Shown here: positions 3,694 through 35,934 of the stretch, one piece after another
Numbering within the stretch: the first letter of the stretch is position 1
How the letters are laid out: the number at the start of each line of letters is the position of its first letter
NCBI GenBank assembly: GCA_019695095.1
Contig: JAIBAQ010000036.1
Location: 1 to 39,917 of the forward strand
DNA length: 39,917 nt
Direction of reading: 5' to 3'
DNA from: Candidatus Hydrogenedentota bacterium
GTDB taxonomy: Bacteria > Hydrogenedentota > Hydrogenedentia > Hydrogenedentales > SLHB01
Notes under the pieces: generated by a model
Databases searched by the model: none
Seen by the model: the letters and a program-made list of their open reading frames with translations, nothing else
Told to the model about the DNA's origin: nothing
Position numbers and translations under genes: made by a program

Positions 3694-4557
3694 ATGAAAG
3701 GAATCATTCTCGCGGGCGGTTCGGGAACACGGCTGTACCCCCTGACGAGGGCCGTCAGTAAGCAACTGATGCCTGTCTACGATAAGCCGATGATCTACTA
3801 TCCCCTCTCGACGTTGTTGCTCGCGGGGATACGTGACGTGCTGATCATCTCGACCCCTCACGATTTGCCCCAGTTCAAACATCTCCTCGGCGACGGCTCC
3901 CAATTTGGGTGTTCCTTCTCGTATGCCGTGCAAGAGATTCCCAATGGGCTCGCCCAGGCTTTTGTAATCGGCGCGTCGTTCGTTGGCAATGACAAGGCCG
4001 CGCTCGTACTCGGCGATAACATCTTCTACGGAAGCGCGCTCGGCACGCAGTTGCAGCAGTGCAACGATCCCCAGGGCGGTATCGTGTTTGCCTACCACGT
4101 CTCCGATCCCGAACGCTACGGTGTCGTCGAATTCGATGCTCAGAACCGTGCCATCAGTATCGAAGAAAAACCCTCGAAACCCAAGTCCAACTTCGCGGTT
4201 CCCGGGCTCTATTTCTACGACAACGACGTCGTCGAAATCGCGAGAACGTTGAAGCCAAGCGCGCGCGGTGAATACGAAATCACCGATGTGAACCGTGTCT
4301 ATTTGGAACGCGGCAAACTCATGGTCTCCATTCTCGACCGCGGCACCGCCTGGCTAGACACCGGTACCTTTGCGTCCCTCATGCAGGCAGGACAGTTCGT
4401 GCAAGTCATCGAAGACCGGCAAGGGTTGAAGATTGGGTGTGTCGAAGAAGCGGCTTACCGCATGGGGTACATTGACGCGGACGGTTTGCGGGCGCTCGCC
4501 GAGCCACTTATGAAGAGCGGATATGGCGCATACCTGCTGAGTCTGCTTGAAGGGTAG
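3694..4557 (+). CDS. rfbA: Glucose-1-phosphate thymidylyltransferase
   Basis: 287 residues, the normal length for RmlA/RfbA. It joins dTTP and glucose-1-phosphate to give dTDP-glucose, the first step of dTDP-L-rhamnose and related deoxysugar synthesis in the cytoplasm. The nucleotide-binding signature [11 protein letters not shown] is at residues 8-18, followed by [20 protein letters not shown], the QE(I)PNGLAQAF segment, LGDNIFYG and EEKP; all are diagnostic of the family. rfbB, rfbC and rfbD are not adjacent, so the rest of the pathway must be encoded elsewhere. A promoter stands immediately upstream, and the gene ends 5 bases from the end of the convergent antitoxin-like gene. Confidence 0.95.
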
Positions 4558-4803: not shown

Positions 4804-4832
4804 TTGATTCCAGCCGCTTTGACGTGTAAAAT
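4804..4832 (+). promoter_or_regulatory. Sigma70-type promoter for tRNA-Leu(AAG)
   Basis: TTGATT at 4804-4809 and TAAAAT at 4827-4832 are separated by 17 bases, 10 bases before the mature tRNA 5' end. Confidence 0.65.
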
Positions 4833-4842
4833 CATTGGGCTG

Positions 4843-4929
4843 GCGCGGATGGTGGAACTGGCAGACACGCTAGACTAAGGATCTAGTCCCCGAAAGGGGA
4901 TGGGAGTTCAAGTCTCCCTCCGCGCACCA
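4843..4929 (+). tRNA. tRNA-Leu (anticodon AAG), CCA encoded
   Basis: 87 bases. The acceptor stem GCGCGGA (4843-4849) pairs with TCCGCGC (4919-4925), followed by discriminator A and an encoded CCA. The long variable arm (TCCCC/GGGGA around GAAA) marks a class II tRNA. The T arm is GGGAG-TTCAAGT-CTCCC. The anticodon stem CTAGA/TCTAG is perfect and closes a 7-base loop CTAAGGA, which places AAG at positions 34-36. AAG is rare in bacteria, where GAG normally covers CUU and CUC. It would need A34 deamination to inosine to read CUC as well. Confidence 0.9.
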
Positions 4930-4940: not shown

Positions 4941-4970
4941 AAGGCGGTTCGGTGACGAGCCGCCTTTTTT
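4941..4970 (+). terminator. Rho-independent terminator after tRNA-Leu(AAG)
   Basis: An 11-base stem (4941-4951 against 4956-4966, one G-T pair) with loop GTGA is followed by a T run ending at 4970. It lies 12 bases after the tRNA CCA end. Confidence 0.8.
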
Positions 4971-5720: not shown

Positions 5721-7022
5721 ATGCCGAAGATTTGTTTTTTGGGCGCCGGTAGCACTGTATTCGCGAAGAATGTACTGGGCGACTGCCTCACTGTGGATTG
5801 CATGCGCGATTCACACATCACGCTGGTGGATATCGACCCCGACCGTCTGCATGTATCCGAAGTGATGATGAAGAATATCAATCGTACGTTGGGCGCCAAA
5901 GCCAAGATCGAAGCGTTTATGAGCGACAAGGCCGCGGACGCCCTGCGCGATGCCGATTTCATCGTGAACGCAATCCAGGTGGGCGGCTATGAGCCCGCGA
6001 CGGTTATCGATTTCGAAGTTCCGAAGAAGTATGGCCTGAAGCAAACCATCGGCGACACGCTGGGTATCGGCGGTATTTTCCGCGGCCTACGCACCATTCC
6101 CGTCATGCTGGATTATTGCCGCATCATGGAAAAGGTCTGCCCGAAGGCCCTGCTTCTCAACTACACGAACCCTATGGCTATCTTGACTGGGGCCATCCAA
6201 CGAGGATCTGCTGTTCGCACGGTGGGTTTGTGCCACAGCGTGCAGGTCTGTGCAAGTCACCTGTGTTGGGAACTGGGCCTGCCGGAAGACAATCTGCAGT
6301 GGAAGATCGCGGGCATCAACCACCAGGGCTGGCTGCTTGAGATATCGCGCAACGGCGAGGATCTCTATCCCGAGATCAAGCGCCGCGCCCAACTTCCGGA
6401 ATACGTGCACAAGGACACCGTTCGCTTCGAAATCATGAAGCGATTCGGGTACTACGTCACCGAATCGAGCGAACACAGCAGCGAATATGTGCCGTGGTTC
6501 ATCAAGAACAAGTCCCCGGAATTGATTGACCGCTTTCACATACCTATTGACGAATATCCGCATCGATGCCGCATTCAGATTCAGGGGTGGGCCGACATGC
6601 GCGATCTCCTGTTGAAGGACGAACCGCTCGAGCACGAGCGCGGGCACGAGTACGCTTCGTACATTTTCGAAGCCATTCTCACCGGAAATCCCTATGTATT
6701 CGGCGGCAACGTCCCCAATACTGGCCTGATTACCAACCTTCCCAACAAGGTGTGCGTAGAGGTGATGTGCGTCGCCGATCGCAACGGTATCACCCCGACC
6801 TATGTGGGCGATCTCCCGCCGCAATGCGCCGCGCTCACGCGCACCAATATCAATGTGCACGACCTCACGATCGAAGCCGCGCTGACGTTGAAGAAGGAGC
6901 ACATCTACCAGGCCGCATTGCTCGACCCGCATACCGCCGCGGAATTGACCATTGATGAGATCATCTCCATGTGCGACGAACTGATCGAGGCGCACGGGGA
7001 TTACTTGCCGAAGTATCACTAG
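5721..7022 (+). CDS. Glycoside hydrolase family 4 protein (alpha-galactosidase/alpha-glucosidase type)
   Basis: 433 residues, the usual GH4 length. GH4 enzymes cleave glycosides by a redox mechanism that needs bound NAD+ and a divalent metal, usually Mn2+. The NAD-binding start FLGAGST is at residues 6-12 and VDIDPDRL at 37-44. The metal site is visible as GLCHS (Cys171, His172) and GINHQGW (His201), corresponding to the Cys and His ligands of the family. NAIQVGG and NYTNPMA are further GH4 signatures. The Cys-His pair favours the alpha-galactosidase/alpha-glucosidase branch (MelA, AglA). AAGGGAG stands 10 bases before the ATG; the frame upstream to 5604 has no such signal. It is first in a cluster with a Gfo/Idh/MocA gene (31 bases downstream) and a bacilliredoxin gene. 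Confidence 0.9.
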   Translation: MPKICFLGAGSTVFAKNVLGDCLTVDCMRDSHITLVDIDPDRLHVSEVMMKNINRTLGAKAKIEAFMSDKAADALRDADFIVNAIQVGGYEPATVIDFEVPKKYGLKQTIGDTLGIGGIFRGLRTIPVMLDYCRIMEKVCPKALLLNYTNPMAILTGAIQRGSAVRTVGLCHSVQVCASHLCWELGLPEDNLQWKIAGINHQGWLLEISRNGEDLYPEIKRRAQLPEYVHKDTVRFEIMKRFGYYVTESSEHSSEYVPWFIKNKSPELIDRFHIPIDEYPHRCRIQIQGWADMRDLLLKDEPLEHERGHEYASYIFEAILTGNPYVFGGNVPNTGLITNLPNKVCVEVMCVADRNGITPTYVGDLPPQCAALTRTNINVHDLTIEAALTLKKEHIYQAALLDPHTAAELTIDEIISMCDELIEAHGDYLPKYH

Positions 7023-7053
7023 TTTGCCGTTCACGGACAGAGGGAGGGGCATT

Positions 7054-8274
7054 ATGAAGAGCGAACATTCGATTGACCGCAGGGGTTTTCTCAAGACAGC
7101 AGGCGCCACTACCGCAGGTGCATTGTTGTTGTCGCCGGGTTCCGCCTTGGGCGCGGAAGCGAACTCGAAGATGCAGTTGGGAATTATTGGCTGCGGCGGA
7201 CGCGGTCCCTGGATTGGAAGCCTGTTTCAGGAAACCACCAACACGAAAGTCGTCGCAGTTCACGATTACTTTCGCGACCGGGCCAAGGCGGCCGGGCAAC
7301 GTCTTGATGTCGAAGAAAAGCGGCAGTACGTCGGTATCGACGGAGTCAACGAGCTCCTGAATAGCGGCGTCGATGCGGTCGCTATCATAAGCCCCCCCTA
7401 CTTTCATCCCGACCAGGTAAAGGCCGCGTTGGCGGCAGGGAAGCACGTCTATCTGGCAAAGCCCATCGCGGTCGACGTGCCCGGATGCAACGCCATCGTC
7501 GAAGCGGCGAAGGGGGCCGGCGGTAAACTGAGCGTGTGGGTCGATTTCCAGACGCGGGTCGATCCCTTGTTCATGGAAGCCGCGAATCGCATTCACAACG
7601 GCGACATCGGCGAGCCGGTGATTTGCCAGGGCTATTACCATACCGGCAGGCTCGGCATTAAGACCCCTCCCGGAACGGAGACGGCCCGCCTGAGGAACTG
7701 GGTCTTTGACATCGCGCTGTCGGGTGACATCATCGTCGAACAGAATGTCCACGTAGTCGATGTAGTCAATTGGTATTTGAAGGGGCACCCTGAAAAGGCT
7801 ATCGGCACGGGCGGACGGCGCGTGCGCACGGACGTGGGCGATTGCTGGGACCATTTCGTCGTGCGGTACCACTATCCAAACGACGTGCTTGTAGACTTCA
7901 GCTCGTCTCAGTTTGCCCCCGGCGGGTTCGACGACATCTGCATCCGGCTCTTTGGCAGCAAGGGCATGGTCGAATCGCACTACGGCGGTCTCGTGTTCCT
8001 GAAGAACAAAGAGAATCCCTGGCAGGGCGGCAAGACCGAACAGATCTATCGCGACGGCGCTGTTGCCAACATGAAGTTGTTCTGCGACAGCATCGCAAAC
8101 AACGCCCCCATCGACAATTCCCAGGAAGCCGCAAACAGCACCTTGAGCAGTATCCTTGGTCGAATGGCGGCCTACGAGAACCGCATGGTCACCTGGGACG
8201 AGATGATGGCAAAGAACGAGAAACTGGACGCTCATCTCAGTTTGCCGGCGGACGGACCTGACTCGAAAACCTGA
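7054..8274 (+). CDS. Tat-exported Gfo/Idh/MocA family oxidoreductase
   Basis: 406 residues. The N-terminus carries a twin-arginine signal (DRRGFLK at residues 8-14, then a hydrophobic Ala/Leu/Gly stretch ending near ALGAEA), so the folded, cofactor-loaded protein should be exported. The Rossmann motif GIIGCGGRG is at residues 43-51, and the family's 'EKP' region reads LAKPIAVDV with the catalytic Lys136 kept and the preceding Glu replaced by Ala. Such enzymes use NAD(P) to oxidise, reduce or epimerise sugars. The start at 7054 is supported by GGAGGGG 4 bases upstream; a TTG at 7024 is in frame but lacks this. Close spacing to the GH4 gene suggests a shared carbohydrate pathway; the substrate cannot be told. 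Confidence 0.9.
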   Translation: MKSEHSIDRRGFLKTAGATTAGALLLSPGSALGAEANSKMQLGIIGCGGRGPWIGSLFQETTNTKVVAVHDYFRDRAKAAGQRLDVEEKRQYVGIDGVNELLNSGVDAVAIISPPYFHPDQVKAALAAGKHVYLAKPIAVDVPGCNAIVEAAKGAGGKLSVWVDFQTRVDPLFMEAANRIHNGDIGEPVICQGYYHTGRLGIKTPPGTETARLRNWVFDIALSGDIIVEQNVHVVDVVNWYLKGHPEKAIGTGGRRVRTDVGDCWDHFVVRYHYPNDVLVDFSSSQFAPGGFDDICIRLFGSKGMVESHYGGLVFLKNKENPWQGGKTEQIYRDGAVANMKLFCDSIANNAPIDNSQEAANSTLSSILGRMAAYENRMVTWDEMMAKNEKLDAHLSLPADGPDSKT

Positions 8275-8344
8275 CCGGGAATAAATCCATCGGCCGCAAA
8301 CGTTTGACGGGGAAGTAAGCGCTTGTCCTGTAAGGAGATTCTTC

Positions 8345-8863
8345 ATGCCTCCCCTGTACGATCCAGAAGCAGTAAAGCCGATGTGGGAAGAGTTGGCGGC
8401 CGTAGGGGTTAAGCCCCTGACGACCCCTGAGGAAGTAGACAAAGTGCTTGGCGGCGACGCCAAAGGCACGACGTTGTTGGTCATCAATTCGGTGTGCGGA
8501 TGTGCTGCAGGCGGGTGCCGCCCAGGCGTCATGCTTGCGCTCCAGAATTCGGTGATCCCGGATACATGCGTGACCGTGTTCGCGGGTATGGACCGTGAAG
8601 CGACTCAACGCGCGCGCGACTACATGGGAGACATTCCACCTTCGTCGCCCAATATCGTCATGTTCAAAGACGGGAAGCCGGCCTACGTGATTCAGCGTCA
8701 GCATATCGAGACCATGACGCCGGTGGACATCGCAAACGTGTTGAAAGACATCTTCAACAAGGAGTGCAATACTCCTGGTCCGTCAATTCCTGCGGAGGAA
8801 TTCGAGAAGATTAGTCCGATACAGCAGTGCGGTTCCTCGATTCCGATGTATCAGGGCGACTAG
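8345..8863 (+). CDS. Bacilliredoxin BrxA/BrxB (YphP/YqiW) family protein
   Basis: 172 residues; the classical members have about 145. The active-site CGC motif lies in NSVCGCAAGGCRPG (Cys51, Cys53), where the family normally has 'NSVCGCAAG-x-ARP'; here an additional Cys58 replaces the usual residue before RP. The rest of the thioredoxin-like fold is recognisable (VTVFAGMDREAT, PPSSPNIVMFKDGKP, HIE conserved at the end of the fold). These proteins remove bacillithiol or related low-molecular-weight thiols from mixed disulfides, or act as general disulfide isomerases/reductases. The tail has two more Cys (about 141 and 164). AAGGAG lies 7 bases before the ATG. It is 70 bases downstream of the Gfo/Idh/MocA gene and followed by a strong terminator, so it probably ends the GH4 operon. 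Confidence 0.9.
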   Translation: MPPLYDPEAVKPMWEELAAVGVKPLTTPEEVDKVLGGDAKGTTLLVINSVCGCAAGGCRPGVMLALQNSVIPDTCVTVFAGMDREATQRARDYMGDIPPSSPNIVMFKDGKPAYVIQRQHIETMTPVDIANVLKDIFNKECNTPGPSIPAEEFEKISPIQQCGSSIPMYQGD

Positions 8864-12346: not shown

Positions 12347-12811
12347 TTACTTCAGTAGATGAAACAGAAAGTCCCTCGCCCTCTCGTAAGCAGCAGGATT
12401 CGCGCTCGCGCGCGGACCCGCTACATTCAGAATACCGACAGCGTGGGTGCGAAGCCACTCCACGGCCAAGGACGGAGACACGGCCTCGTCGAGGTCGATA
12501 ACCAAGCACGGCTTACGCTCCATTCGAGCGCACTCGACAGTAAAAGCCGTGCCGCCAGAAGGCTCGCCAAAGGTGAGAACCAAGGTGGCGTCCGAATCAC
12601 GCACGTTCCACCGGGTTCGCTCTGCGTAATCTACGGAAGGCGTTTCCGTCAGCGGGTAACGGGCGGGAATGGAACCGTCTTCCGCGAGACGATTCTTCGG
12701 ACACCAACCGCCGCAAGGAATGCCCAACTCCAAGGCTACATCTAGCGCGGCGCGATCGACCCCTGTCTGTCCTCCCGAAACGATTAGATGAAGACAGAAC
12801 AATGGCGTCAC
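12347..12811 (-). CDS. Circularly permuted YpsA-like protein (putative molybdenum carrier family)
   Basis: 154 residues. The sequence SGGQTGVDRAALD (residues 12-24), then 'GIPCGGWCPKNRLAEDGSIPARYPL', 'TRWNVRDSDATLVLT' and 'SGGTAFTVECA' match the conserved blocks of the family annotated as putative molybdenum carrier protein/circularly permuted YpsA, a Rossmann-like member of the SMF/DprA-LOG superfamily. Members are thought to bind a nucleotide or nucleotide-linked ligand; the molybdenum link is weak, and no activity can be deduced here. Its ATG overlaps the secretin stop (ATGA), so it is translationally coupled to the secretion operon, which is an odd location for a cytoplasmic protein. Confidence 0.85.
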   Translation of the reverse strand: MTPLFCLHLIVSGGQTGVDRAALDVALELGIPCGGWCPKNRLAEDGSIPARYPLTETPSVDYAERTRWNVRDSDATLVLTFGEPSGGTAFTVECARMERKPCLVIDLDEAVSPSLAVEWLRTHAVGILNVAGPRASANPAAYERARDFLFHLLK

Positions 12812-15339
12812 GGTGCGTTTGCGTCGGGCGTATTCTCTGACGGGGAAGGAGCTTCTGAGGAATTCGTCTCAGGCGTACCCTCTCCTGAGTTACTGCTGTC
12901 CGTCGTATCTTCTTTGTAGTTGGGGATAAATGGCGAGGAGTTGGCCTCAATCTTGACTTTCAAACCAGCCGCTTCAGCCCTCGACTTGGCTTCTTCGGCC
13001 AGCCCGCTGGGTGCATTCGGATGGGCGCGAAGGCATACCGTGGGTTTGACCTTGGCATCACGCGCCTTGTCGAATTCAGACTGCAACTCATCGAGCGTAA
13101 TAGTCTTGCCGTCAACGTAGAACTTACCGTTTTCGCCAAGGCCCACGGGCAGCTCGTTCGCGCCTTTCGCCATGCGGTCAGCGGTACGGCCCCAAATGTT
13201 CTTCTTGGAATGACGGAATTTGTCGGCGGTTTCAGCATCGAACTTTGCGAGATGCTCGGCTTCCGGCTGCGTATATTCATCCACGATGGTTGAAGTGATA
13301 AAAACCGCCAGTTCGCGATTGATGTGGTCCTTCTTCGTTCCCTTGAACAATCGTCCCACGAAGGGAACATCTCCCAGGATGGGCACCTTGTCCACGGAAT
13401 CGGTGAGATTCGCAAAGCGGAGCCCGCCGATGACAACCGTCTGTCCGCTGTTCACAAGGACACTCGTTTGGGCTTTGTTCTGCGATTTTTCAGGAACCGT
13501 GCTCTTCAGGTTTGCCGTCTCGATGGTCTTGTCCTCGGCCGTGCTATCCTCGGCCTCGATCTCCATGAGGACATTGTTTTCACCGTTAATCCGCGGTTTT
13601 ACCTTCAGTATCGTACCGGTCTCTTCAAATTGTACGCTGCCGGGAGAAACACGCGACCCGATCCCGGTGTCTTGGTCATTGGAGACGATACCCACGTTGG
13701 AGAATCCAAACGTCTGATACGCGTTCTTCCGCGTGTTCTCGAATGTTGCCTCTTCCCCATCTTGCACCGTTACCCGAGGACGCGCGAGGATTCGGATTTC
13801 CCCGTTCCGGTCCAGGTAATCCAAAACGATGGCAACCCGGTTGCCTTTGAAGTCCGGATCGAGAATGTTGTTGCCTGTCAACTTACCTGCCTCGCTCCCG
13901 TCCACGTTGCTCACTTCCTGGATGGGTGCGTTTGTAAAGTCGTCGCGCAGGAATGCGCGATACGGCTTCCGGCCAACCGTGGCGCGCTGACCCGATTCAG
14001 GACTGGACGTGTAGTCGGGATTGGCGTTTCCGCTTTGGAGCGCAAACGGCACCCCCGAAATCTCGTCGAAGTAGGACCAGTTGACAGATAGGTTCCTGAG
14101 CACCGTGCTGGACGCCGTGACAAGGTACGCCTCGATCATGACCTGCCGCCCTTTGACGTCCCACATCTTGATCATCTCGTCGAGTTCCTCGATGCGCGAG
14201 GGAATCGACGTCATACTGATTTGATGGGTGTCTTCGTCGATGGTCAGCCCTGTCACGTCTTCCGGCAGCACATTCTCTAGACGTTCGGAAACCGTCTTCG
14301 GATCGGCGTAGTTCAACGTCCAGGTGCGAGTTTCCAGCTTCTGATCGAGCGCCTCCAGCATCTTACCGATCTGATCCTGGCGGCTCGGCAAATCGGTAAC
14401 GACTATTGAGTTCGTCCTCGGATCGGAGTTTGCCAACCCACGCTCCGAGAGAAGGCTTTGAATCGAGTCGAGCAGATCGTCCGCCGCGAGATGCTTGAGC
14501 GCGAACACGCGCGGCTCAAGCGGAACATCCATCTGCTCGACGGCCCGCGTCATCTCCTCGATGTTGGCTTCCGTATCCCACACGATAATGCGGCCAGTTC
14601 GCGGATCGCTTACCAACTTGCCCGTTTCCGACGTAAGCGCCGACAGTATGGCCTCCATATCGATTACGTCCGCATGCTTGATATGGAATTCGGCGCTCTC
14701 AACTTTGCCAAACTGACGGTCGAGATACTCTTCGTTGAGCATCACGTACAGGAATTTGTTCTCGGCATCGTATTCGTAGTGAATGCCGTTGAACTTAAGT
14801 ACCGACATCACTTGCTTCGGCTTGACTTCATTCACCCAGAACCGTACCGACTGCCCTTCCAAGCCCTTGGACGCGATAATGTTCCAGCCTGTCGACGTGG
14901 CCACGTAGTCGAGCAATTCCATTACGGGCACCGGCGCGTCGGCTGCCAAAAGCGTGATCGGTTGTCCTTCATCCGGTACGTCGCCGTATTCAACCTTACG
15001 CTGAAGGATCGGCTCGAACGCGCCTGAACCGCCCACCGTCACCTGACGCCGCTCCGCCTTAATCGCCTTTACCGAACCGGTACGTTGCTGTTGTGTCCCG
15101 GCCTGAGACTGGGAGCCGCCTCTTCCAGGCTGCGATGAACCCATCTCGTTGCCCGTTTGTCCACTCGGATTGAACTGCTGAACGATAGCAGTTCCGGTCG
15201 TTGCACCTCCCTCAATAATAGGAGTAGGGCCAGGTGTGACTGGGCTCTGCTGAGCACCGGACTGTGGAATTGCAGCTACCGCGAGTGTGGTCAGCACTGC
15301 GGCCATCCAGAAGCGTCTCACTTCAACCCTCCCGCTCAT
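12808..15339 (-). CDS. gspD: Type II secretion secretin with C-terminal ExbD/TolR-like region
   Basis: 843 residues. A signal peptide covers residues 1-29. After a Gly/Gln/Ser-rich linker come N-domains (N0 about 125-200; N1-N3 about 215-395, with 'SDPRTGRIIVWD' and 'SDPRTNSIVVTDLPSRQ') and the secretin core at about 395-690, ending in VPILGDVPFVGRLF (652-665) and 'RELAVFITSTIV'. Secretins form the multimeric outer-membrane channel of type II secretion. Beyond the core, residues 737-798 (YVDGKTITLDEL ... AEAAGLKVKIE) resemble the periplasmic domain of ExbD/TolR, then an acidic Ser/Pro tail of about 45 residues follows. A promoter lies upstream at 15405-15433. The stop overlaps the next gene's start. 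Confidence 0.93.
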   Translation of the reverse strand: MSGRVEVRRFWMAAVLTTLAVAAIPQSGAQQSPVTPGPTPIIEGGATTGTAIVQQFNPSGQTGNEMGSSQPGRGGSQSQAGTQQQRTGSVKAIKAERRQVTVGGSGAFEPILQRKVEYGDVPDEGQPITLLAADAPVPVMELLDYVATSTGWNIIASKGLEGQSVRFWVNEVKPKQVMSVLKFNGIHYEYDAENKFLYVMLNEEYLDRQFGKVESAEFHIKHADVIDMEAILSALTSETGKLVSDPRTGRIIVWDTEANIEEMTRAVEQMDVPLEPRVFALKHLAADDLLDSIQSLLSERGLANSDPRTNSIVVTDLPSRQDQIGKMLEALDQKLETRTWTLNYADPKTVSERLENVLPEDVTGLTIDEDTHQISMTSIPSRIEELDEMIKMWDVKGRQVMIEAYLVTASSTVLRNLSVNWSYFDEISGVPFALQSGNANPDYTSSPESGQRATVGRKPYRAFLRDDFTNAPIQEVSNVDGSEAGKLTGNNILDPDFKGNRVAIVLDYLDRNGEIRILARPRVTVQDGEEATFENTRKNAYQTFGFSNVGIVSNDQDTGIGSRVSPGSVQFEETGTILKVKPRINGENNVLMEIEAEDSTAEDKTIETANLKSTVPEKSQNKAQTSVLVNSGQTVVIGGLRFANLTDSVDKVPILGDVPFVGRLFKGTKKDHINRELAVFITSTIVDEYTQPEAEHLAKFDAETADKFRHSKKNIWGRTADRMAKGANELPVGLGENGKFYVDGKTITLDELQSEFDKARDAKVKPTVCLRAHPNAPSGLAEEAKSRAEAAGLKVKIEANSSPFIPNYKEDTTDSSNSGEGTPETNSSEAPSPSENTPDANAP

Positions 15340-15404
15340 CGGATAAATACGGCCAACTCCGCTACGGCCTCCAAGTAGACCAATAACCGATGTTAACCAT
15401 TTAC

Positions 15405-15433
15405 AGTATAGCGCAAAACTCTAAAAATCAACA
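15405..15433 (-). promoter_or_regulatory. Probable internal sigma70-type promoter for the secretin gene
   Basis: On the minus strand a good -10, TATACT (15405-15410), is preceded 17 bases upstream by TGTTGA (15428-15433), or at 15 bases by TTGATT (15426-15431). It lies in the only sizeable gap (119 bases) between the inner-membrane genes and the secretin gene. Confidence 0.5.
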
Positions 15434-15458
15434 GATCAGATACGCGCGCCGGCAGTCC

Positions 15459-15920
15459 CTAACGCCGCGGAATCGTCACGTTGTACTCCTGCCCCGCCTG
15501 TGACAGAGAAAACACGACCCCCGCATCCGTTATATCCTTTATCGTACACCCTTTAATCTGCTGCCCCTTACCGTACCAGCCCTTGACGCCGTCAACAATG
15601 ATCTGAATCTTGTCCGCCATCTTGTTTCGCTTGGGCTGAACCCCTGCCAGCATGCTGGACAAGTTCGGCGGCGGAGCCGCCTGCACGGCGGCCTTGACCA
15701 GCGGCGCCCACATATCGGTCCTCGAAGTCACGACATTGCGCCAGGCGGCAGAATCGGCCTCCGTGTTGTCAGCGACATAGGCCGGCGGCTCCAGCTCTTC
15801 TAGCTGAACTGCAAATCGTTGTCGCTCTGCGGCAACGGGACTCTTGATGAAGCCCAGCACGAGCAAGGCCAACAGGGCCACCAAGACCAGTACACAGACG
15901 GGTAACGCAAGTCGTTTCAC
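15459..15920 (-). CDS. GspC/PilP-like periplasmic linker protein of the secretion system
   Basis: 153 residues: one N-terminal membrane helix (residues 4-24, LPVCVLVLVALLALLVLGF), a Pro-rich extended stretch, and a small C-terminal domain (about 105-153) with 'YGKGQQIKGCTIKDITDAGVVFS', the shape of the homology-region/PilP beta fold: 'kGd.i.g..I..I....V.l'. Such proteins connect the inner-membrane platform to the secretin N0 domain. The C-terminal domain is as expected for GspC without a PDZ domain, or for PilP. Its ATG overlaps the stop of the PilO-like gene (ATGA). The assignment rests on size, topology and position more than on sequence. Confidence 0.7.
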   Translation of the reverse strand: MKRLALPVCVLVLVALLALLVLGFIKSPVAAERQRFAVQLEELEPPAYVADNTEADSAAWRNVVTSRTDMWAPLVKAAVQAAPPPNLSSMLAGVQPKRNKMADKIQIIVDGVKGWYGKGQQIKGCTIKDITDAGVVFSLSQAGQEYNVTIPRR

Positions 15921-17002
15921 GGTTTGCCCTCCGTCTGCATCAGCGACACGTTGTCGACCGTCACAACACTGGTCTTCGCTTCAAGAACGATGAATGGGGC
16001 CCGAATGGGGACAGTCGCTCCCGGTTCGCCCGGAACAGTTATGAAGAACCGGTATGTGTAGACGCCGCTGTCGGCCTTCGCCGTTTCGCCTTTGCCCAGT
16101 GGCGCGCCGTCATTGTTTGCGACAGTTATCGTGGCAGGCGCTTGAGCCTGCAGGTCTAGGGAAAGCTCATAGGTATTGCCTGCAACCAGGTTCTGTATCT
16201 GGTACAACGAGGCACCGTCCTTCTCCGCCGTCACGCGCACGCTGCTCTGTCCTTCGGTCATGTATTGCTGACTCTGAATCATCGTGCAGCCGTCAGCGGT
16301 CCAGTCTGTCGGCATCGAAGTCTGGGAATCCCAATTCTCGAAGCTCGGATTACGTACCAGATTCACCTTGCTCACCGGCGCCGGCGCTTCAACAACGGGC
16401 GGACTCGTGGTCGCGTCGCCAATAATCGTACGAGTAACCGTGAACTTGGCGCCCACGGCGGTCGTCGCCGGCTGTCGCGAGATTTCGAGACTATCTACCC
16501 GGAGCGCCTGATCACTTTGCTGCAAGCGTTCCAGGAATTGGGCCAAGTTCTGTATAGGCGCGTCTTCGGTTCGGAAAGCCACGGTATACTTGCGATAGCC
16601 TTCCCCGCTGTTGTCCAACGTCCCTTTCTCCATATTGCGGATATCGACAAGCAAGTTGTTGGCCTGCATCGGGGGGGCCTCTTCACCCGGCTTAGGGAGG
16701 TTCTTCTGCGTGAGCCGTCTAATCTCGCGCCAAAGCCGATCATGGATCTCTTCCTGGGTCCACTGGCTTGAATGCTGGGTGGCAATTGCCTGATAGGCCT
16801 TGTCGACGGCTTCAGCCTGTACCGTCTGCTGTTTGTAGTAAAGAAGATCCTGCTGCAGGTCCGCAATCGTCTCGTCCATGGCAGCAATGCTGTCGATGGC
16901 GCGAATGGTCCCAACGACCAGAACCGCACCAGCCAACAGAACGGCAGCCAAAACGGCAAGCCTGCGCTCCGACGGCGATAGTTTTCGGATAAAGGCTAGC
17001 AC
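15917..17002 (-). CDS. PilO/GspM-like inner-membrane protein with C-terminal carbohydrate-binding-like module
   Basis: 361 residues. A membrane helix at about residues 14-34 is followed by a coiled-coil-like segment (36-75) and a PilO/GspM-type ferredoxin-like part (about 80-197; 'YRKYTVAFRTEDAPIQNLAQFLERLQQ', 'LRVDSLEIS'). A Pro-rich linker (197-212) leads to a region beginning VNLVRNPSFENWD, the classical opening of CBM4/9-type jelly-roll modules, with 'PTDWTADG' and a closing 'VVTVDNVSL' strand (213-357). GspM/PilO normally stops before this. Start is GTG with GGGAGG 5 bases upstream; 15 bases separate it from the previous gene. The C-terminal module should lie in the periplasm. Confidence 0.75.
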   Translation of the reverse strand: MLAFIRKLSPSERRLAVLAAVLLAGAVLVVGTIRAIDSIAAMDETIADLQQDLLYYKQQTVQAEAVDKAYQAIATQHSSQWTQEEIHDRLWREIRRLTQKNLPKPGEEAPPMQANNLLVDIRNMEKGTLDNSGEGYRKYTVAFRTEDAPIQNLAQFLERLQQSDQALRVDSLEISRQPATTAVGAKFTVTRTIIGDATTSPPVVEAPAPVSKVNLVRNPSFENWDSQTSMPTDWTADGCTMIQSQQYMTEGQSSVRVTAEKDGASLYQIQNLVAGNTYELSLDLQAQAPATITVANNDGAPLGKGETAKADSGVYTYRFFITVPGEPGATVPIRAPFIVLEAKTSVVTVDNVSLMQTEGKP

Positions 17003-17017
17003 CGTGAACCTCCCGTG

Positions 17018-18508
17018 TTACTGCTCATCGGCAGGCTCCTCGGCAGACATGGACACAGCCTCACTGTCATCCAGCGGGATTAGAATCTCGTACTGCCAGA
17101 CTTGCTTGTCGCCCTCCGTGACCTGCTTATGAGAGCCGGGCTGCACGCGAGCAAATTGGGGAATCTCCGTCTTGCTTGCTTCGCGTAGCGTGTCAATCCA
17201 TTGGTCGACCACGGTAATGTCCTGCACGCGTCCGCTAACGGCTATGCTTTGTCCGTGAATGAAGCGCATGCTTGTTATGTTGAGGTCGGTACTGGGGGCG
17301 CGCTTAAACAACTCGGCCATCAGTTCCAAGGCCGAGCCCGTGCGGTCAAGGCCGCGCTGCAATACCGCGAGCTGCTTCTTCTTCGCCGCGACGTCATCGG
17401 CAATAGGTTTCAATTGGTCTGCCGTAGTCTGAAGTTCACGAATATACGACTTGCGCTGCCACGCAGCCTGACCGTAGAGTGCCAGCAACGCAATGAGAAT
17501 CGCCGACCCCAGACCAACCACGTTGTACAGGTTACGTTTGAAGGCCGACCGTTCGCGATCCTCCGAGAGCGAGCGCGGAACGAGACTGATGACAATCGGC
17601 GCGCGGTCCTGCGCCGCAAGGGCCGCACCCAATGGAATAAGTGGTATGCCTGTGAGCAGCTCGTCGCCTTTGGAACAGAGGCTTTTCGGGATGTGAATGG
17701 GCGAGCACTCGAAGCCCGACGTGTCCGACAAGGTCTCCGCAATCGCCGCCACATCGGCGCACTCGGAACACAGGTACACGCGTTCCACCGGCTCGCCGTC
17801 TTCGCTCTCGCGGCGATACGCCGATAGAGAAGCGCGGAGTTCCGACGAGAGTTCTTCAATTGCCTCAAAATTCTCGCGCGGACTTGCGGACCAGTCGTAG
17901 TTGGTCGCGATACCTCGCCCAAATTCGATGCGGCCCGCGTTGAATACCAAAACCTCTATGCCAGACCCGCCCAAGTGCAGAAGAGCCCAACGTTCGGACG
18001 TGTGAAGCGATGCCGACGCCGCGCCCAAGCATGCCGTGCTTACGAGGATCTTTTCCGGCTCCAAGCCGCAGGCTTTGAGCAACGCGACATGCGATTCCAC
18101 CACGTCGCGGTGCGCGAACACGGCCAGAACACGGGATTGTCCATCCTGAGACTTTTGCAGGATACACTGATCAACGACAACCTCGTGCGCGGGATACGGC
18201 ACGTATTCCTCAACACTCAGCCGGACCATTCCCGCAACTTCCTCCGGAGACTCCGAAGGAAGCATGAGAATGCGCGCCGTCATATCGTGGCGGGGCAGTA
18301 CCGTAAAAAGGTGATCCTCTGCAAGGCGATGTTTTGCGGAGAATTCGCGCAGAGCGGACTCCAACGTGCCGTCCTGTGTAGACCATGCGCCGCGCTCCAC
18401 GACATGATCGACTATCTCGATGCCCTTCGTGGTGCGGTGGCAGCGCAACAGGGAAAGTACGGTTCCGTCTACCTGCAAAACAGCGATATTTGAAGATTTA
18501 CGAGCCAA
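17018..18508 (-). CDS. gspL: GspL-like protein (PilM-type actin-like domain plus PilN-type part)
   Basis: 496 residues. The N-terminal 300 residues have the PilM/GspL cytoplasmic actin-like fold ('VLPRHDMTARILMLPSESPEEVAGMVRLSVEEYVPYP', 'WALLHLGGSGIEVLVFNAG', 'IPLGAALA'). A membrane helix follows at about 330-347 (NVVGLGSAILIALLALYG), then a coiled coil and a PilN-like periplasmic domain ('SALELMAELFKRAPSTDLNITSM', 'VSGRVQDITVVDQWIDTL'). The combination equals GspL or a PilM-PilN fusion; it recruits the assembly ATPase GspE to the inner-membrane platform. Start is TTG, with GGAGGG 5 bases upstream. It overlaps the end of gspK by 11 bases. Confidence 0.88.
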   Translation of the reverse strand: MARKSSNIAVLQVDGTVLSLLRCHRTTKGIEIVDHVVERGAWSTQDGTLESALREFSAKHRLAEDHLFTVLPRHDMTARILMLPSESPEEVAGMVRLSVEEYVPYPAHEVVVDQCILQKSQDGQSRVLAVFAHRDVVESHVALLKACGLEPEKILVSTACLGAASASLHTSERWALLHLGGSGIEVLVFNAGRIEFGRGIATNYDWSASPRENFEAIEELSSELRASLSAYRRESEDGEPVERVYLCSECADVAAIAETLSDTSGFECSPIHIPKSLCSKGDELLTGIPLIPLGAALAAQDRAPIVISLVPRSLSEDRERSAFKRNLYNVVGLGSAILIALLALYGQAAWQRKSYIRELQTTADQLKPIADDVAAKKKQLAVLQRGLDRTGSALELMAELFKRAPSTDLNITSMRFIHGQSIAVSGRVQDITVVDQWIDTLREASKTEIPQFARVQPGSHKQVTEGDKQVWQYEILIPLDDSEAVSMSAEEPADEQ

Positions 18509-19439
18509 TGCCGCCCTCCATCCAATTGAGGAAGGTCACTTCATCTTGCTTGATTTCCACGACCGCTTCCGCCGTCGCGCGGATCTTTCCTTGCCGTTCA
18601 GTGGCAAAGCCCTTGATTTTAAAGACCTGCGACCGCAACTTACAATACTTCTGGAACGGCGTAATCTGGTCACCAGTTAAGGAAAGCCGCGCGGCCAACT
18701 CTCCCATGGTCCTGAACGTGCGATCGTCCGCGGTGTCGATGAGCCCGTCCGGCCCCTGGCGGTAACCGATGATGGCGTTACGAATGTCGTCGCTCATATC
18801 TGGAATTACTTTGAGAACCTCATCGGCAGCCGTGTTGATGTTGATCCTTCCGTCGCCGTACACAGTGAACAGGTCGCGCAGCCCCTTCGAGCCTTCAGAT
18901 CCTTCCCAGAGTTCGTCGGTCATGCCCTTCAAGTAACGTGCTTCCTCGACGGTCAGAAATGGATTGTATTTGTCCGGAGTCTCTTTCGATTTCTGGCGCT
19001 CCAGAATATCTTCGATTGTCGTGAAGCCAAGCCCTTCAATTTGCTCAAAGATTTCTTTTTGTGACGCGTTAAGCGAAATGCGGGCTTCCGCGTCTTCGAG
19101 TTCATATCCCGCCTGATCGTCACCGTATAGGCTTGGGTCTTCAGGAGCGTACACCCCTTTGTCTTCCATCAGATCGGATTTCCGGAGGCGAAGGTTCAGA
19201 TTGTATTCGAGACCCACGCTGTTGTAGAGCTGCTGCATGAAGACCTCGTTCTTCACCTTCGCAATGCCCATCTCAATGGCCCCACGCGCCCGGTAGTAGG
19301 CTTCCGTGTGGTCAATCGAGTAGGCCGCGGCGCGCTGATCGAGCATGGCTCGTCTTCCAAACCCGACCATAAGCGCCGTCAACACGACAAGCGCCCAGAG
19401 CACCGTGATCAGCACATAACCACGTTCACGCGCCCGCAT
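18498..19439 (-). CDS. gspK: Type II secretion minor pseudopilin GspK
   Basis: 313 residues. The N-terminus RERGYVLITVLWALVVLTALMV is a class III signal with cleavage after Gly, and the mature +5 position is Thr rather than Glu, as expected for GspK, the tip pseudopilin. The large globular part contains the SAM-like helical domain pattern of GspK ('IEGLGFTTIEDIL', 'FTVYGDGRININTAADEVLKVIP'), the latter being a strong family signature. GspK caps the pseudopilus together with GspI and GspJ. It overlaps gspJ by 14 bases and gspL by 11 bases. Confidence 0.9.
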   Translation of the reverse strand: MRARERGYVLITVLWALVVLTALMVGFGRRAMLDQRAAAYSIDHTEAYYRARGAIEMGIAKVKNEVFMQQLYNSVGLEYNLNLRLRKSDLMEDKGVYAPEDPSLYGDDQAGYELEDAEARISLNASQKEIFEQIEGLGFTTIEDILERQKSKETPDKYNPFLTVEEARYLKGMTDELWEGSEGSKGLRDLFTVYGDGRININTAADEVLKVIPDMSDDIRNAIIGYRQGPDGLIDTADDRTFRTMGELAARLSLTGDQITPFQKYCKLRSQVFKIKGFATERQGKIRATAEAVVEIKQDEVTFLNWMEGGIGS

Positions 19440-20211
19440 TAAGCAACCCTCCTTCTTGCTCGAAGGAATCTCGGTCGATCTCGCTGGTCGGGCCGCGGAA
19501 TGCGGTCATCATCGTGAACTTCGTCTTCTGCCCCTTCGCTTTCGACGACACGGACTTGTCCACAAGGGTCAATTCGATTCGGATGCCCTGTGGCATACCG
19601 GAGCCTTCCTTCAATTCGTCGAGAACGATGAGCTTTATAGGCCGAGGAGGCAGCGACGGATCCTCCTGTTTTATCTCGTCTTTCGGGGGAAGCCAACAAT
19701 ACCGGATCGCAAAACTATCCACATCCGACGCGAGTTCGAATTGGTGTTCGGTGCCGAGCTTGAGGACTGTCCGATCAATCTCTCCATCCTTGGGCGGTAC
19801 GGGTGGCAAAGAACTCTCGACGATGCGTTCTTCGCGGACCAGAGAGTCGGCCGCTTTACCGGAACCCTTCTTAATTCGGTAACGAATCCACATCGTGCGC
19901 GGCTCCGAGCCTTCTTCAACATCCATCGGCGGAACGACCGCAATAAACTCGAGTTCGTCGCTCGTGCCTTTGAGGAGATGAATGGCCCCTGGAAGGATGT
20001 TCTGAAGCTCGCGGCGGATGATGCCCAACGAAGTGCGGGCGTCTTGATACGACCGCAGATTGGATTCACCGGTGCGCCACAGACGGATGGACGAGCTGTA
20101 CGCGGTGAACAGCGCCGTCATCACGATGGTGATGATGGTCGTTGCCACAAGCAGCTCCGCCAGGGTAAACCCCGGGCTAGCGCTTTGCTGGCTGTGCTTG
20201 CGCTTTTTCAC
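19426..20211 (-). CDS. gspJ: Type II secretion minor pseudopilin GspJ-like
   Basis: 261 residues. The leader is basic (MKKRKHSQQSASPG) and is followed by FTLAELLVATTIITIVMTALF, giving Glu at +5 and a long hydrophobic helix. The mature part contains the GspJ-type 'TSLGIIRRELQNILPGAI' and beta-rich regions. It is longer than Escherichia GspJ (about 200). Order in the operon (between I and K) agrees with the call. It overlaps gspI by 35 bases and gspK by 14 bases, so translation is coupled. Confidence 0.8.
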   Translation of the reverse strand: MKKRKHSQQSASPGFTLAELLVATTIITIVMTALFTAYSSSIRLWRTGESNLRSYQDARTSLGIIRRELQNILPGAIHLLKGTSDELEFIAVVPPMDVEEGSEPRTMWIRYRIKKGSGKAADSLVREERIVESSLPPVPPKDGEIDRTVLKLGTEHQFELASDVDSFAIRYCWLPPKDEIKQEDPSLPPRPIKLIVLDELKEGSGMPQGIRIELTLVDKSVSSKAKGQKTKFTMMTAFRGPTSEIDRDSFEQEGGLLNAGA

Positions 20212-20695
20212 CTTGCTCCTGAACCTTCTTGTATACGTACAATCGCTCTGGCCCGATCAGGGTTTCCGCGGTTCGGGTATATGTCTGATCGCGTCGCGTC
20301 CAGAGAACCGTAACGGAAATCTTCCCGACATAAGGGACAGGCATCTCGATGCCGTCCGGATAATTCACAAGTATTTCGGGAGGAACCCTGGGAACGGGGA
20401 TATCCGCGCGGGACACGGCCCACTTGTATTTGAACCGGGGATAGTCCTTTCCGAAATCCCCTTGTCCGGTGCTGTTTTCCGCAAGCATTGGCTGCAATTC
20501 CAGTTCGGACATCACCTGCTCAATAAAGAACCGGGCTTGCGTGTAATCCTGCGCCATGGCGCGCGTGAACATCGATTCTCCGAGCGCACGGTTCGCGGCG
20601 AGAATCCCCACACTAAGGACGACCAGCGCAACAAGGGTCTCGACCAAGATCCAACCCCGATTCGTATTCCGAGCCATGTGCGTCGAGGTGCTCAC
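20177..20695 (-). CDS. gspI: Type II secretion minor pseudopilin GspI-like
   Basis: 172 residues. The prepilin signal is RGWILVETLVALVVLSVGILA, with Trp instead of Phe after the cleavage Gly, and Glu at +5. Then 'RALGESMFTRAMAQDYTQARFFIEQVMSELE' resembles the conserved GspI alpha-helix. The C-terminal tail is Lys/Gln-rich (VQEQGEKAQAQPAKR). The ATG overlaps the stop of gspH (ATGA type); the 3' end overlaps gspJ by 35 bases. The call comes from length, signal and position. Confidence 0.8.
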   Translation of the reverse strand: MSTSTHMARNTNRGWILVETLVALVVLSVGILAANRALGESMFTRAMAQDYTQARFFIEQVMSELELQPMLAENSTGQGDFGKDYPRFKYKWAVSRADIPVPRVPPEILVNYPDGIEMPVPYVGKISVTVLWTRRDQTYTRTAETLIGPERLYVYKKVQEQGEKAQAQPAKR

Positions 20696-21213
20696 GACTT
20701 CACCTCAAACTGGCCGAGGCGGCCCTTCGTATCGATGGTGACCTTCTGACGGCGGTCGAGTGTAAGCTCCAACTTCGCCTCGTCGCACGCGCCACCGGGA
20801 AAGAACGAAATATACTGCGCCTTTGCTTTCCGGTCGAGGTGGGCCTTCGGCTTCTTGAGGGTGATTGTCTTGGGGAGGTGGCGCACAATTCCCTCTCCGC
20901 CATCCGGGCGCGCGAACAAGCGCTCTCCGCGCTCATCCGTCTTGTCGTACCGCATGATCCAGTAGGCGCCTTTATCCGGGCTCATGTAAAAGCGGTACTC
21001 GACGGTGTCGATGATGGCGCGTTCCTGCGCGTACTTCATGAGCGCGATGAAATCGCGCGTTGCCCGGTCGCGTTGAATGAACGAAACGGAACCGTGATAG
21101 ACAGGCACGACCGTCGCGGACATCACGGCAATAATGGTCAGCACGATGATGAGTTCCATCAGCGTGAAACCCGCGCTCGACGACCGCTGTTCTGTCGGAC
21201 TTGTTCTTTGCAT
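20692..21213 (-). CDS. gspH: Type II secretion minor pseudopilin GspH-like
   Basis: 173 residues. The prepilin signal is AGFTLMELIIVLTIIAVMSA with Glu at +5. The following 'RDRATRDFIALMKYAQERAIIDTVEYRFYMSP' is the GspH pattern (long helix leading into strands), and the C-terminus 'VTIDTKGRLGQFEV' is a GspH-type 'i-x-x-x-G' strand end. It is separated from gspG by 72 bases, while its stop overlaps the gspI start. Confidence 0.85.
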   Translation of the reverse strand: MQRTSPTEQRSSSAGFTLMELIIVLTIIAVMSATVVPVYHGSVSFIQRDRATRDFIALMKYAQERAIIDTVEYRFYMSPDKGAYWIMRYDKTDERGERLFARPDGGEGIVRHLPKTITLKKPKAHLDRKAKAQYISFFPGGACDEAKLELTLDRRQKVTIDTKGRLGQFEVKS

Positions 21214-21285
21214 TGCCGTTAGAATTCGTGTGCCCTGACCACAACACGGAATACCAAGGAGACTCGACTGGCTGACATTGACCCG

Positions 21286-21675
21286 CTACTCGATGCCCCA
21301 TACCGATAGGTCGTCTTCGGTACCGGATTGTCCATCGATGCCGCGCGAAAACAGGTCGTATTTATTGGCTTTGCCCGGAACGCTGTATACGTAGGGGTTT
21401 CCCCATGGGTCGTTCTTGACCTTCTCGATGTACTTGATCCCCGTCTTGGGATCGGGCGTGGCAAGATCGTCGAGGGATTTCGGGTATTTGTCGTTGTGCT
21501 CAAGACCGTAGGCTTCGATGGCGCGCTGATACACGCCAAGGTCCGACTTCACTCGCGTCTCGCTCGCCTGCCGGCTGCGTCCCTGCACGCTGAAGGCGAC
21601 CGCTCCCGCAAGGATGGAGATGATCACCATCACCAACAGCAACTCAATTAGTGTGAAACCGCTTTTGTCGTTCAT
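21286..21675 (-). CDS. gspG: Type II secretion major pseudopilin GspG
   Basis: 129 residues, close to the family length after processing. [20 protein letters not shown] is the prepilin signal. 'KSDLGVYQRAIEAYGLEHNDKYPKSLDDL', 'NDPWGNPYVY' and the C-terminal calcium-binding loop 'YDLFSRGIDGQSGTEDDL' are diagnostic for GspG. This protein polymerises into the pseudopilus that pushes substrates through the secretin. The start has CGGAG 10 bases upstream. It lies 32 bases after gspF. Confidence 0.95.
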   Translation of the reverse strand: MNDKSGFTLIELLLVMVIISILAGAVAFSVQGRSRQASETRVKSDLGVYQRAIEAYGLEHNDKYPKSLDDLATPDPKTGIKYIEKVKNDPWGNPYVYSVPGKANKYDLFSRGIDGQSGTEDDLSVWGIE

Positions 21676-21707
21676 GGTTCGATATCTCCGAAATAGGGAT
21701 TTCCCTG

Positions 21708-22919
21708 TTACTTAACGTGAGAACTCAGAGTCACAATCGGGAGCAGCATGGCGATCACGAGCGTACCAATGATGCCTCCCATAATTACGATCATAATCGG
21801 CTCAAACAACGCCGTAAGCGCCTTGACCGCACGCTCAACCTCAAGATCGTAGGCGTCGGCCATGCGCTTGGTTACCGCGCCAAGGCGTCCGCTCTCTTCG
21901 CCGACGGCAAACATATTCACCACCATCGGCGGGAAATACTCGGTATCCTTGAGGCCCGAGCTGATGCTGTCGCCTTCCGCGACACGTTCCTCGATGATGG
22001 ACAGTTCGTTGGCAATGGCCTTATTGCTCAAGGTATCGCTCGTAATGCGAATGGATCGCAGAATGGGCACGCCGTTGTCGATCAAGGTGCCCAATGTGCG
22101 GGCGAACTGCGCCATCACATACTTTTGTACGAGGACGCGTACTCCCGGGATGCGTAAAGTGAACTTATCTATCTGCAACCGCCCTGGCGCGCTGCGCCAA
22201 TACGAGACGATTCCTCCTGCAATGAGCACGAATCCGAGGAGTACCGCCCACCAGAAGTGCGACATGAATGTGCAGAAGCCAAGCACAAACTGGGTAATCA
22301 ACGGCAATTCGACTTCGAAATCCTCAAACAGCCCCACAAACTTCGGGAAGACGAACGAGACCAGGATGAAGATGGCCGCAGTTCCCATAAATAACAAGAA
22401 GATGGGATAAATCATCGCGGAAACAGCCGTCCCGCGCAGTTCTTCGTCGCGTTCTCCGAAAGCCACAATGCGCCACACCACTTCTTCGAGCATGCCACCC
22501 GATTCACCTGCGTGTATAAGGCTCACATGCATGGCGGGGAAGACTCGCGGGTGCCTTTCAAGCGCTTCGGCAAACGTGCTCCCCTTCTGAATGTCTTCTC
22601 GAATCTGCTCCACCACAGCGATGAGCTTCGGATTCGTATTCTGTTCGGCAATGGTCGATAAGGCGCGCGTGAGTGGCATCCCGGACTCGATCAGATTCGC
22701 GAGTTGCCGAAAGAAGACATTTCTGTCCTTGAGGCCAATTCGCAGAATGGCGCGTTTGATTGCGTCCTGTTTCGCGTCACCCGTGAACTCGCGAATCGAG
22801 ATTGGGAAATACCCCATATCGCGCAGACGGGCAAGCGCGGCGCGCTGGCTTTCCGCTTCAAGAACGCCGGTCGTCGCCGGGCCGGGCCCTTTCTTTACCT
22901 CATACTGATACTGGGGCAT
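21708..22919 (-). CDS. gspF: Type II secretion inner-membrane platform protein GspF
   Basis: 403 residues with two repeated T2SS-F domains. Signatures include 'FFRQLANLIESGMPLTRALSTI', 'HVSLIHAGESGGML', 'FARTLGTLIDNGVPILRSIRI' and 'MVVNMFAVGEESGRLG', with three transmembrane helices (about 160-190, 210-235 and at the C-terminus). GspF forms the membrane hub around which the ATPase GspE turns. The start is placed at MPQYQYEV (22919), where homologues begin; the frame is open to 22949, and both starts lie inside the end of gspE, so translation is coupled either way. Confidence 0.93.
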   Translation of the reverse strand: MPQYQYEVKKGPGPATTGVLEAESQRAALARLRDMGYFPISIREFTGDAKQDAIKRAILRIGLKDRNVFFRQLANLIESGMPLTRALSTIAEQNTNPKLIAVVEQIREDIQKGSTFAEALERHPRVFPAMHVSLIHAGESGGMLEEVVWRIVAFGERDEELRGTAVSAMIYPIFLLFMGTAAIFILVSFVFPKFVGLFEDFEVELPLITQFVLGFCTFMSHFWWAVLLGFVLIAGGIVSYWRSAPGRLQIDKFTLRIPGVRVLVQKYVMAQFARTLGTLIDNGVPILRSIRITSDTLSNKAIANELSIIEERVAEGDSISSGLKDTEYFPPMVVNMFAVGEESGRLGAVTKRMADAYDLEVERAVKALTALFEPIMIVIMGGIIGTLVIAMLLPIVTLSSHVK

Positions 22920-29140: not shown

Positions 29141-29731
29141 TTATTTTCGCGTAATACAGGCATCTATTGTATTCCAGAGTTCGCGCAGTCCTTCTTTCGA
29201 CACCGCCGAAAACGGAATGATCGAATCCACCTCATCTATGCCCAGTTCCTCGGCCATCGCCTCAAGATAACGCATCCGCTCAGCCGCCCCCACTTTGTCC
29301 ACTTTGGTGGCCACGAGCACTGTCGGCACCTTGGCTTCTTCCAACAGATCAAGTAGTTCGTGGTCGTTGTGCGAGGGTTTATGCCTCACGTCTATTAGGT
29401 GCGCAACAATTCGGAGCGTGTTACGCGTGGCCAGGTAGTCGGTTATGGCCCGCCCCCACTCTTCGCGGAGCGCCTTCGAGACTTTCGCGAAACCGTAGCC
29501 CGGCAGATCCACAAAATAGACGCTGCCGTTCACATCGAAGAAATTGATCATCTGCGTCTTGCCGGGCCGTTTGCTCGTCTTGGCGAGGTTCTTCTTGTTC
29601 AGGAGGACATTCAGCAGCGTCGACTTGCCCGCGTTGGACCGACCTGCGAAGGCAATCTCCGGGCGGCCGTCGCGCGGGAACTGGTCCGGCAGAATCGCGC
29701 TCTTGAGAAAGTCGGCGGACTTGATTCTCAT
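29141..29731 (-). CDS. engB: Ribosome biogenesis GTP-binding protein EngB (YsxC/YihA)
   Basis: 196 residues, the family length. G1 GRSNAGKST (residues 30-38), the switch with KTSKRPGKTQMINFF, G3 'DLPGYGFAKV', and G4 'TKVDK' are all typical of the TrmE-Era-EngA-EngB-Septin GTPase group, with PGKTQ being the EngB signature. EngB is a cytoplasmic GTPase needed for assembly of the large ribosomal subunit. Its ATG overlaps the lon stop in an ATGA unit, so the two are coupled. The lon-engB order is common in bacteria. Confidence 0.95.
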   Translation of the reverse strand: MRIKSADFLKSAILPDQFPRDGRPEIAFAGRSNAGKSTLLNVLLNKKNLAKTSKRPGKTQMINFFDVNGSVYFVDLPGYGFAKVSKALREEWGRAITDYLATRNTLRIVAHLIDVRHKPSHNDHELLDLLEEAKVPTVLVATKVDKVGAAERMRYLEAMAEELGIDEVDSIIPFSAVSKEGLRELWNTIDACITRK

Positions 29732-32112: not shown

Positions 32113-32161
32113 CGTCTTTTACCCTTCTTCGGGGACCATTCCCCGCGATCGCGCGATAACC

Positions 32162-32192
32162 AAAAAGACCGGAAGGGAAGACTCCCTTCCGG
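32162..32192 (-). terminator. Rho-independent terminator between clpX and lon
   Basis: On the minus strand a perfect 10-base stem (CCGGAAGGGA with TCCCTTCCGG, 32169-32178 against 32183-32192) with a 4-base loop is followed by TCTTTTTGG. It lies about 70 bases after the clpX stop. Confidence 0.8.
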
Positions 32193-35849: not shown

Positions 35850-35934
35850 TGGTGGGCGAGGCGGGAGTTGAACCCGCACATCTTGCGATACTGGATCCTA
35901 AGTCCAGCGCGTCTGCCAATTCCGCCACTCGCCC
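35850..35934 (-). tRNA. tRNA-Leu (anticodon TAG), CCA encoded
   Basis: 85 bases. Acceptor GGGCGAG pairs with CTCGCCC, followed by A and CCA. The anticodon stem CTGGA/TCCAG closes the loop CTTAGGA, giving anticodon TAG (UAG). A long variable arm of class II type (ATCGCAAGAT) is present. T arm GCGGG-TTCAACT-CCCGC. Third of three tRNAs ahead of tig. Confidence 0.93.

Follow-up and report, generated by a model that had tools for sequence, protein, structure and literature searches.

A tRNA-Leu gene with anticodon AAG is fixed in Hydrogenedentota and probably decodes CUU and CUC through inosine

The 39,917-nucleotide stretch of Candidatus Hydrogenedentota DNA analyzed here (the window) carries a real, functional-looking gene for a leucine tRNA with the anticodon AAG. 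It is the sole tRNA detected in its genome for the codons CUU and CUC. We consider it highly probable that the gene forms a transcription unit of its own, that TadA edits A34 of its product to I34 and that the resulting IAG anticodon decodes both codons; the gene itself would have arisen by a G34A change accompanied by A at position 38. A tRNA-Leu reading CUU and CUC usually has G as its first anticodon base, and leucine tRNAs with A34 are known mainly from some Gram-positive bacteria, mycoplasmas and cyanobacteria. A study from 2026 places bacterial tRNA-Leu(AAG) almost wholly in Bacilli (PMC13249217).

A leucine tRNA gene with anticodon AAG

ARAGORN reports a tRNA-Leu(aag) with boundaries at exactly 4843-4929 (+), and Rfam family RF00005 matches 4843-4926 with a score of 52.1 bits (gathering score 29). 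The class II fold, the long variable arm and the leucine anticodon identify the product as a tRNA-Leu. Its anticodon arm reads CTAGA-CTAAGGA-TCTAG, in which a 5-bp stem free of mismatches closes a loop of positions 32-38. The first-pass annotation had read AAG on a perfect 5-base stem here and had noted a second tRNA-Leu, with anticodon TAG, in the window; both readings are borne out, the former by ARAGORN, RF00005 and the sequence itself and the latter by ARAGORN on the minus strand. A window-wide Rfam scan with default fast filters misses the AAG gene, which is detected when its stretch is searched alone. Because of this, the call is based on ARAGORN, the focused Rfam search and a search of the host's own genome.

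The gene is flanked by a promoter-like site and by a hairpin resembling an intrinsic terminator (Table 1). When 20 relatives from the phylum were inspected by eye, most of them had promoter-like pairs of the TTG.../TATAAT type at an equal distance 5' of the gene, and most had hairpins like that of the window 3' of it. Because similar elements recur at similar distances in most of these relatives, the gene appears to have been kept as a transcription unit of its own.

Table 1. Features in and around the tRNA-Leu(AAG) unit, with the second tRNA-Leu gene of the window
Feature	Position	Strand	Remarks
Promoter-like site TTGATT-17-TAAAAT	4804..4832	+	ends 10 nt before tRNA-Leu(AAG)
tRNA-Leu(AAG)	4843..4929	+	87 nt including encoded CCA; ARAGORN and Rfam RF00005
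Intrinsic-terminator-like hairpin, then T run	4941..4966	+	-20.3 kcal/mol, z -3.9
rmlA (glucose-1-phosphate thymidylyltransferase)	3694..4557	+	TIGR01207, 481 bits; upstream neighbor, outside the tRNA unit
Rid-family protein, 129 aa	5020..5409	+	TIGR00004, 72.8 bits (below curated cut-off); downstream neighbor, outside the tRNA unit
tRNA-Leu(TAG), loop CTTAGGA	35850..35934	-	ARAGORN; expected codons CUA and CUG

Leucine tRNAs of the host and its phylum

The host MAG (G000) comprises 6.77 Mb in 405 contigs, of which the window is contig 36, and is 95.3% complete and 3.1% contaminated. Among its 46 decoded tRNA matches the leucine anticodons are CAA, CAG, TAA, TAG and AAG, and the genome-wide look for a tRNA-Leu(GAG) proposed in the first-pass annotation found none among these 46. 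That annotation also had the CUN box decoded by IAG plus UAG; the reading of CUU and CUC by IAG fits, but the box contains a CAG tRNA as well. The remaining four-codon boxes use G34 (Pro GGG, Ser GGA, Thr GGT, Val GAC, Ala GGC and Gly GCC). The sole other A34 tRNA of the genome is tRNA-Arg(ACG), the canonical bacterial substrate of TadA, whose loop CTACGGA differs from the leucine loop CTAAGGA only at position 35. As the MAG is incomplete and a tRNA-Asp was not found in the draft either, the absence of GAG rests on a survey of the phylum and not on one genome.

Hydrogenedentota, represented by one order in the genome collection used, was surveyed with two patterns, each accepting A34 or G34. 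The pattern survey found tRNA-Leu(AAG) in 38 of the 42 genomes that are at least 90% complete, and the second pattern search placed it on a paired anticodon stem in 55 of 68 genomes of any completeness. Six stems recur and differ by compensatory changes (CTAGA/TCTAG, CCAGA/TCTGG, CAAGA/TCTTG, CTAGG/CCTAG, CAAGG/CCTTG and CATGG/CCATG). Neither of the two G34-tolerant patterns revealed a true GAG tRNA in the surveyed genomes. All GAG matches were unpaired except one in G026:C100, the stem of which is mostly paired; ARAGORN rejects it, and it is not a tRNA. Since AAG occurs in 38 of these 42 genomes and GAG in none, tRNA-Leu(AAG) is a fixed trait of Hydrogenedentota and not a sequencing error. 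The host tRNA set and the phylum survey thus agree that A34 is encoded and the GAG isoacceptor absent.

Occurrence in other phyla

A named scan for the strict core gave at least 80 loci, a sample selected for CTAAGGA, and every one listed is tRNA-Leu(AAG) according to ARAGORN. The groups among the matches listed are Cloacimonadota, Hydrogenedentota, Mycoplasmopsis, Clostridia, Fermentibacteria, Deltaproteobacteria/Myxococcales and Patescibacteria. With a looser pattern, AAG was found in 79 of 88 Cloacimonadota genomes and in 20 of 24 genomes of the phylum to which G060 belongs. The same pattern showed the two anticodons to be mutually exclusive in Fermentibacteria (26 genomes with AAG and 3 with GAG out of 31). 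In the deltaproteobacterial/Myxococcales class of G051, 19 of the 45 genomes have AAG, another 19 have GAG and none has both, with one additional, unverified GAG-like match in G258. The recovery of GAG in Fermentibacteria and in this class indicates that the looser pattern detects GAG genes well. The first-pass annotation had taken leucine I34 to be limited mainly to some Firmicutes and Cyanobacteria. That range proves far too narrow: Hydrogenedentota and Cloacimonadota have AAG as a fixed trait, and it is common in Fermentibacteria, the phylum of G060 and the deltaproteobacterial class. In the literature on anticodons and inosine we found no mention of AAG for Hydrogenedentota or Cloacimonadota, the nearest report being one on 4-bp anticodon stems. 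Two Cloacimonadota drafts, G134 and G136, have a tRNA-Leu(GAG) beside tRNA-Leu(AAG) (L274, 204-287, and L275, 4730-4816), which is either contamination or a genuine case of A34 and G34 side by side in one genome.

Base 38 changes together with base 34

In five surveys position 38 was left free, while position 32 was set to Y and position 37 to R. A38 was present in 198 of 199 AAG genomes versus 0 of 24 GAG genomes, most matches outside Hydrogenedentota being assessed from the pairing of the stem, with ARAGORN confirming a sample of them. The AAG loops read C/U-UAAGGA, and the loops of the GAG genomes read TTGAGGG or TTGAGGT. The lone AAG exception, G172 from the phylum of G060, has G38 in the loop TTAAGGG of a tRNA confirmed by ARAGORN (L306, G172:C179:36612-36639). 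This tRNA may be unedited or may reflect a recent switch.

In Fermentibacteria, a GAG gene (L281) and an AAG gene (L302) differ only at positions 34 and 38 and at three positions of the variable loop. The pair represents a direct G34A plus G38A switch. A mechanism is available from published work. TadA of Streptococcus pyogenes edits tRNA-Leu(AAG) fully, with the editing consensus YUAMGRA (PMC11472039), and the CTAAGGA loop of the window matches this consensus. Editing of an AAG loop by the Escherichia coli enzyme is blocked by changes at positions 32, 37 or 38 (PMC11066159). Leucine IAG decoding as such is known; the A34-A38 rule and the breadth of the trait over uncultured phyla are new as judged from the literature that we searched.

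TadA of Hydrogenedentota

All 16 Hydrogenedentota genomes tested contain one clear TadA. In the host, which is among them, the enzyme is encoded on G000:C81, scores 166 bits with NF008113 (over the cut-off) and has the HAE and PCxxC motifs. We aligned Hydrogenedentota sequences with the B. subtilis-like, S. aureus, E. coli and S. pyogenes enzymes and with those of AAG taxa. The first-pass annotation had expected a TadA of wider specificity. The alignment contained no signature common to all AAG taxa and no unambiguous specificity change in Hydrogenedentota, whose TadA looks canonical, with D and LM near E. coli positions 108 and 118. The S. pyogenes enzyme has N and LY near these positions; Cloacimonadota, the phylum of G060 and one deltaproteobacterium share the LY change, which Hydrogenedentota lack. 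All sampled Hydrogenedentota sequences (L058, 1489-2001) and that of S. pyogenes have Cys where E. coli has A32, and no other aligned sequence does; with so few sequences aligned, this is a lead only. E. coli TadA edits an AAG-type leucine loop to only about 15% (PMC11066159) and does not edit the S. pyogenes tRNA-Leu(AAG) (PMC11472039). Within the sequences compared, the visible covariation with A34 lies in position 38 of the tRNA.

Use of CUU and CUC

CUC is heavily used in the host even though its genome has no detected GAG tRNA, which answers the comparison of CUC with CUU suggested in the first-pass annotation. CUU and CUC make up about 17% and 24% of its leucine codons, respectively, and 16% and 21% of those in the ribosomal-protein genes of the S10 operon. 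We then expressed codon preference by setting the CUC:CUU log-ratio against that of six other C/U boxes, using about 8-40 kb per genome and a gene caller checked on the ribosomal contig. The host value of -0.63 means a lowered preference for CUC. With genomes taken as independent and phylogeny ignored, the AAG and GAG genomes differ both in Fermentibacteria (-0.80 in 13 genomes vs +0.17 in 3) and in the class of G051 (-0.45 in 10 genomes vs +0.30 in 10). No parallel shift of Arg CGC:CGU was seen between AAG and GAG genomes. Kinship set aside, the use of CUU against CUC is raised in AAG genomes and not in GAG ones. The shift has the same direction as the published effect of IAG, which equalizes the decoding of CUU and CUC (PMC13249217).

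Proposed decoding and its alternatives

These findings are in agreement with the following scheme. The tRNA-Leu(AAG) would be transcribed alone with A34 and would serve as the only detected tRNA for both CUU and CUC. TadA, the editor of tRNA-Arg(ACG), very probably deaminates A34 of the leucine tRNA to inosine too. The IAG anticodon would then read CUU and CUC and could also read CUA, with the UAG and CAG tRNAs reading CUA and CUG. Within Hydrogenedentota, the gene would have descended from a tRNA-Leu(GAG) in which G34A went together with the acquisition of A38, and the resulting loop YUAAGGA resembles the Arg(ACG) loop that TadA recognizes. The expectation in the first-pass annotation that IAG decodes CUU and CUC fits the lack of GAG, the presence of TadA and tRNA-Arg(ACG), and the heavy use of CUC.

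Alternatively, A34 could stay unmodified, so that AAG reads CUU while CUC is read through weak A:C pairing or superwobble of UAG, as in some mycoplasmas. We infer I34 in Hydrogenedentota from DNA, some C-ending codons can be read by unmodified A34 (PMC11066159), and there are Mycoplasmopsis genomes with the same AAG core, of which the one tested (G063) yielded no match to TadA at the chosen cut-off. However, CUC does not behave like a poorly read codon, being among the most used leucine codons of the host and common in its ribosomal-protein genes. In addition, 16 of 16 Hydrogenedentota genomes tested have TadA, and the coupled A38 fits recognition by TadA; decoding by unmodified A34 is therefore unlikely. 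An artefact, be it a sequencing error, a pseudogene or contamination of the MAG, has a negligible probability. The host is a draft of 405 contigs with about 3% contamination, but the gene has its own promoter-like and terminator-like elements, its recurrence in 55 of the 68 genomes of the phylum, on stems that differ by compensatory changes, rules out sequencing error and pseudogene, and the contig also bears such normal chromosomal genes as clpX, lon, tig and a pilQ-like gene.

Another objection concerns the account of the coupling and not that of decoding. A38 might be explained by a general adjustment of the 32-38 pair to suit the anticodon, or by an origin of the gene through duplication of Leu(UAG) or Leu(CAG), rather than by recognition by TadA. 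Indeed, the host Leu(UAG) and Leu(CAG) loops (CTTAGGA and TTCAGGA) also have A38, and the UAG anticodon arm is similar to that of AAG. Nevertheless, the Fermentibacteria AAG gene is plainly a GAG gene with G34A and G38A, and because the two differ only by these changes outside the variable loop, duplication of UAG is excluded in that group. Furthermore, within the loop it is changes at 32, 37 and 38 that block editing (PMC11066159). We regard this objection as possible but doubtful and retain recognition by TadA as the more likely reason for the coupling.

Relation to known systems

The closest parallel is the tRNA-Leu(IAG) of the Lactobacillales S. pyogenes, S. mutans and Oenococcus oeni, where, as here, an A34 gene replaces GAG, the loop fits YUAAGRA, TadA is present and the use of CUU and CUC is shifted (PMC11472039, PMC13249217). 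For Lactobacillales the inosine has been proven, and the S. pyogenes enzyme works where that of E. coli fails, whereas here I34 is deduced from the genes and TadA does not carry the N and LY that S. pyogenes has near E. coli positions 108 and 118. The present host is also GC-richer, and its trait spans a whole phylum. Mycoplasma and Prochlorococcus have the same tRNA-Leu anticodon (PMC13249217), and Mycoplasmopsis has the core GGCAGACACG...CTAAGGA in common with the window tRNA. Those genomes are reduced, and TadA may be absent in mollicutes, in contrast to the 6.8 Mb, nearly full tRNA set and TadA found here. The tRNA-Arg(ACG) also has A34, but differs from the window tRNA in amino acid, tRNA body and position 35.

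With some reserve we favor a broader reading, in which leucine inosine decoding would be lineage-fixed in several whole phyla (Hydrogenedentota, Cloacimonadota and others) and would have been gained repeatedly from Leu(GAG) by coupled G34A and N38A changes, with no obvious rebuilding of TadA. If so, it is no speciality of Gram-positive bacteria. Fixation over uncultured phyla and the AAG/GAG switching inside two groups provide natural replicates for asking how bacterial inosine decoding extends beyond arginine and affects codon use, and the A34-A38 coupling offers a simple, testable rule for the tRNAs that TadA accepts.

Further features of the window and host

On the minus strand, 29728-36214 contains tRNA-Gly(GCC), tRNA-Lys(CTT) and tRNA-Leu(TAG) immediately 5' of tig, with clpX and lon further on. 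A type IV pilus/type II secretion-like cluster occupies 12808-24651 and encodes a PilQ/GspD-like secretin, a T2SSF-type inner-membrane protein and a T2SSE ATPase with an MshEN domain. A 523-aa ORF (6961-8532, -), for which Pfam and NCBIfam gave no match, overlaps the end of an alpha-galactosidase-family gene. The host tRNA-Trp(CCA) (L021, 1498-1574, -) has G.A in place of the top anticodon-stem pair, leaving a stem of 4 bp, and such a 4-bp stem of tRNA-Trp(CCA) has been reported for all Hydrogenedentota (PMC13092985).
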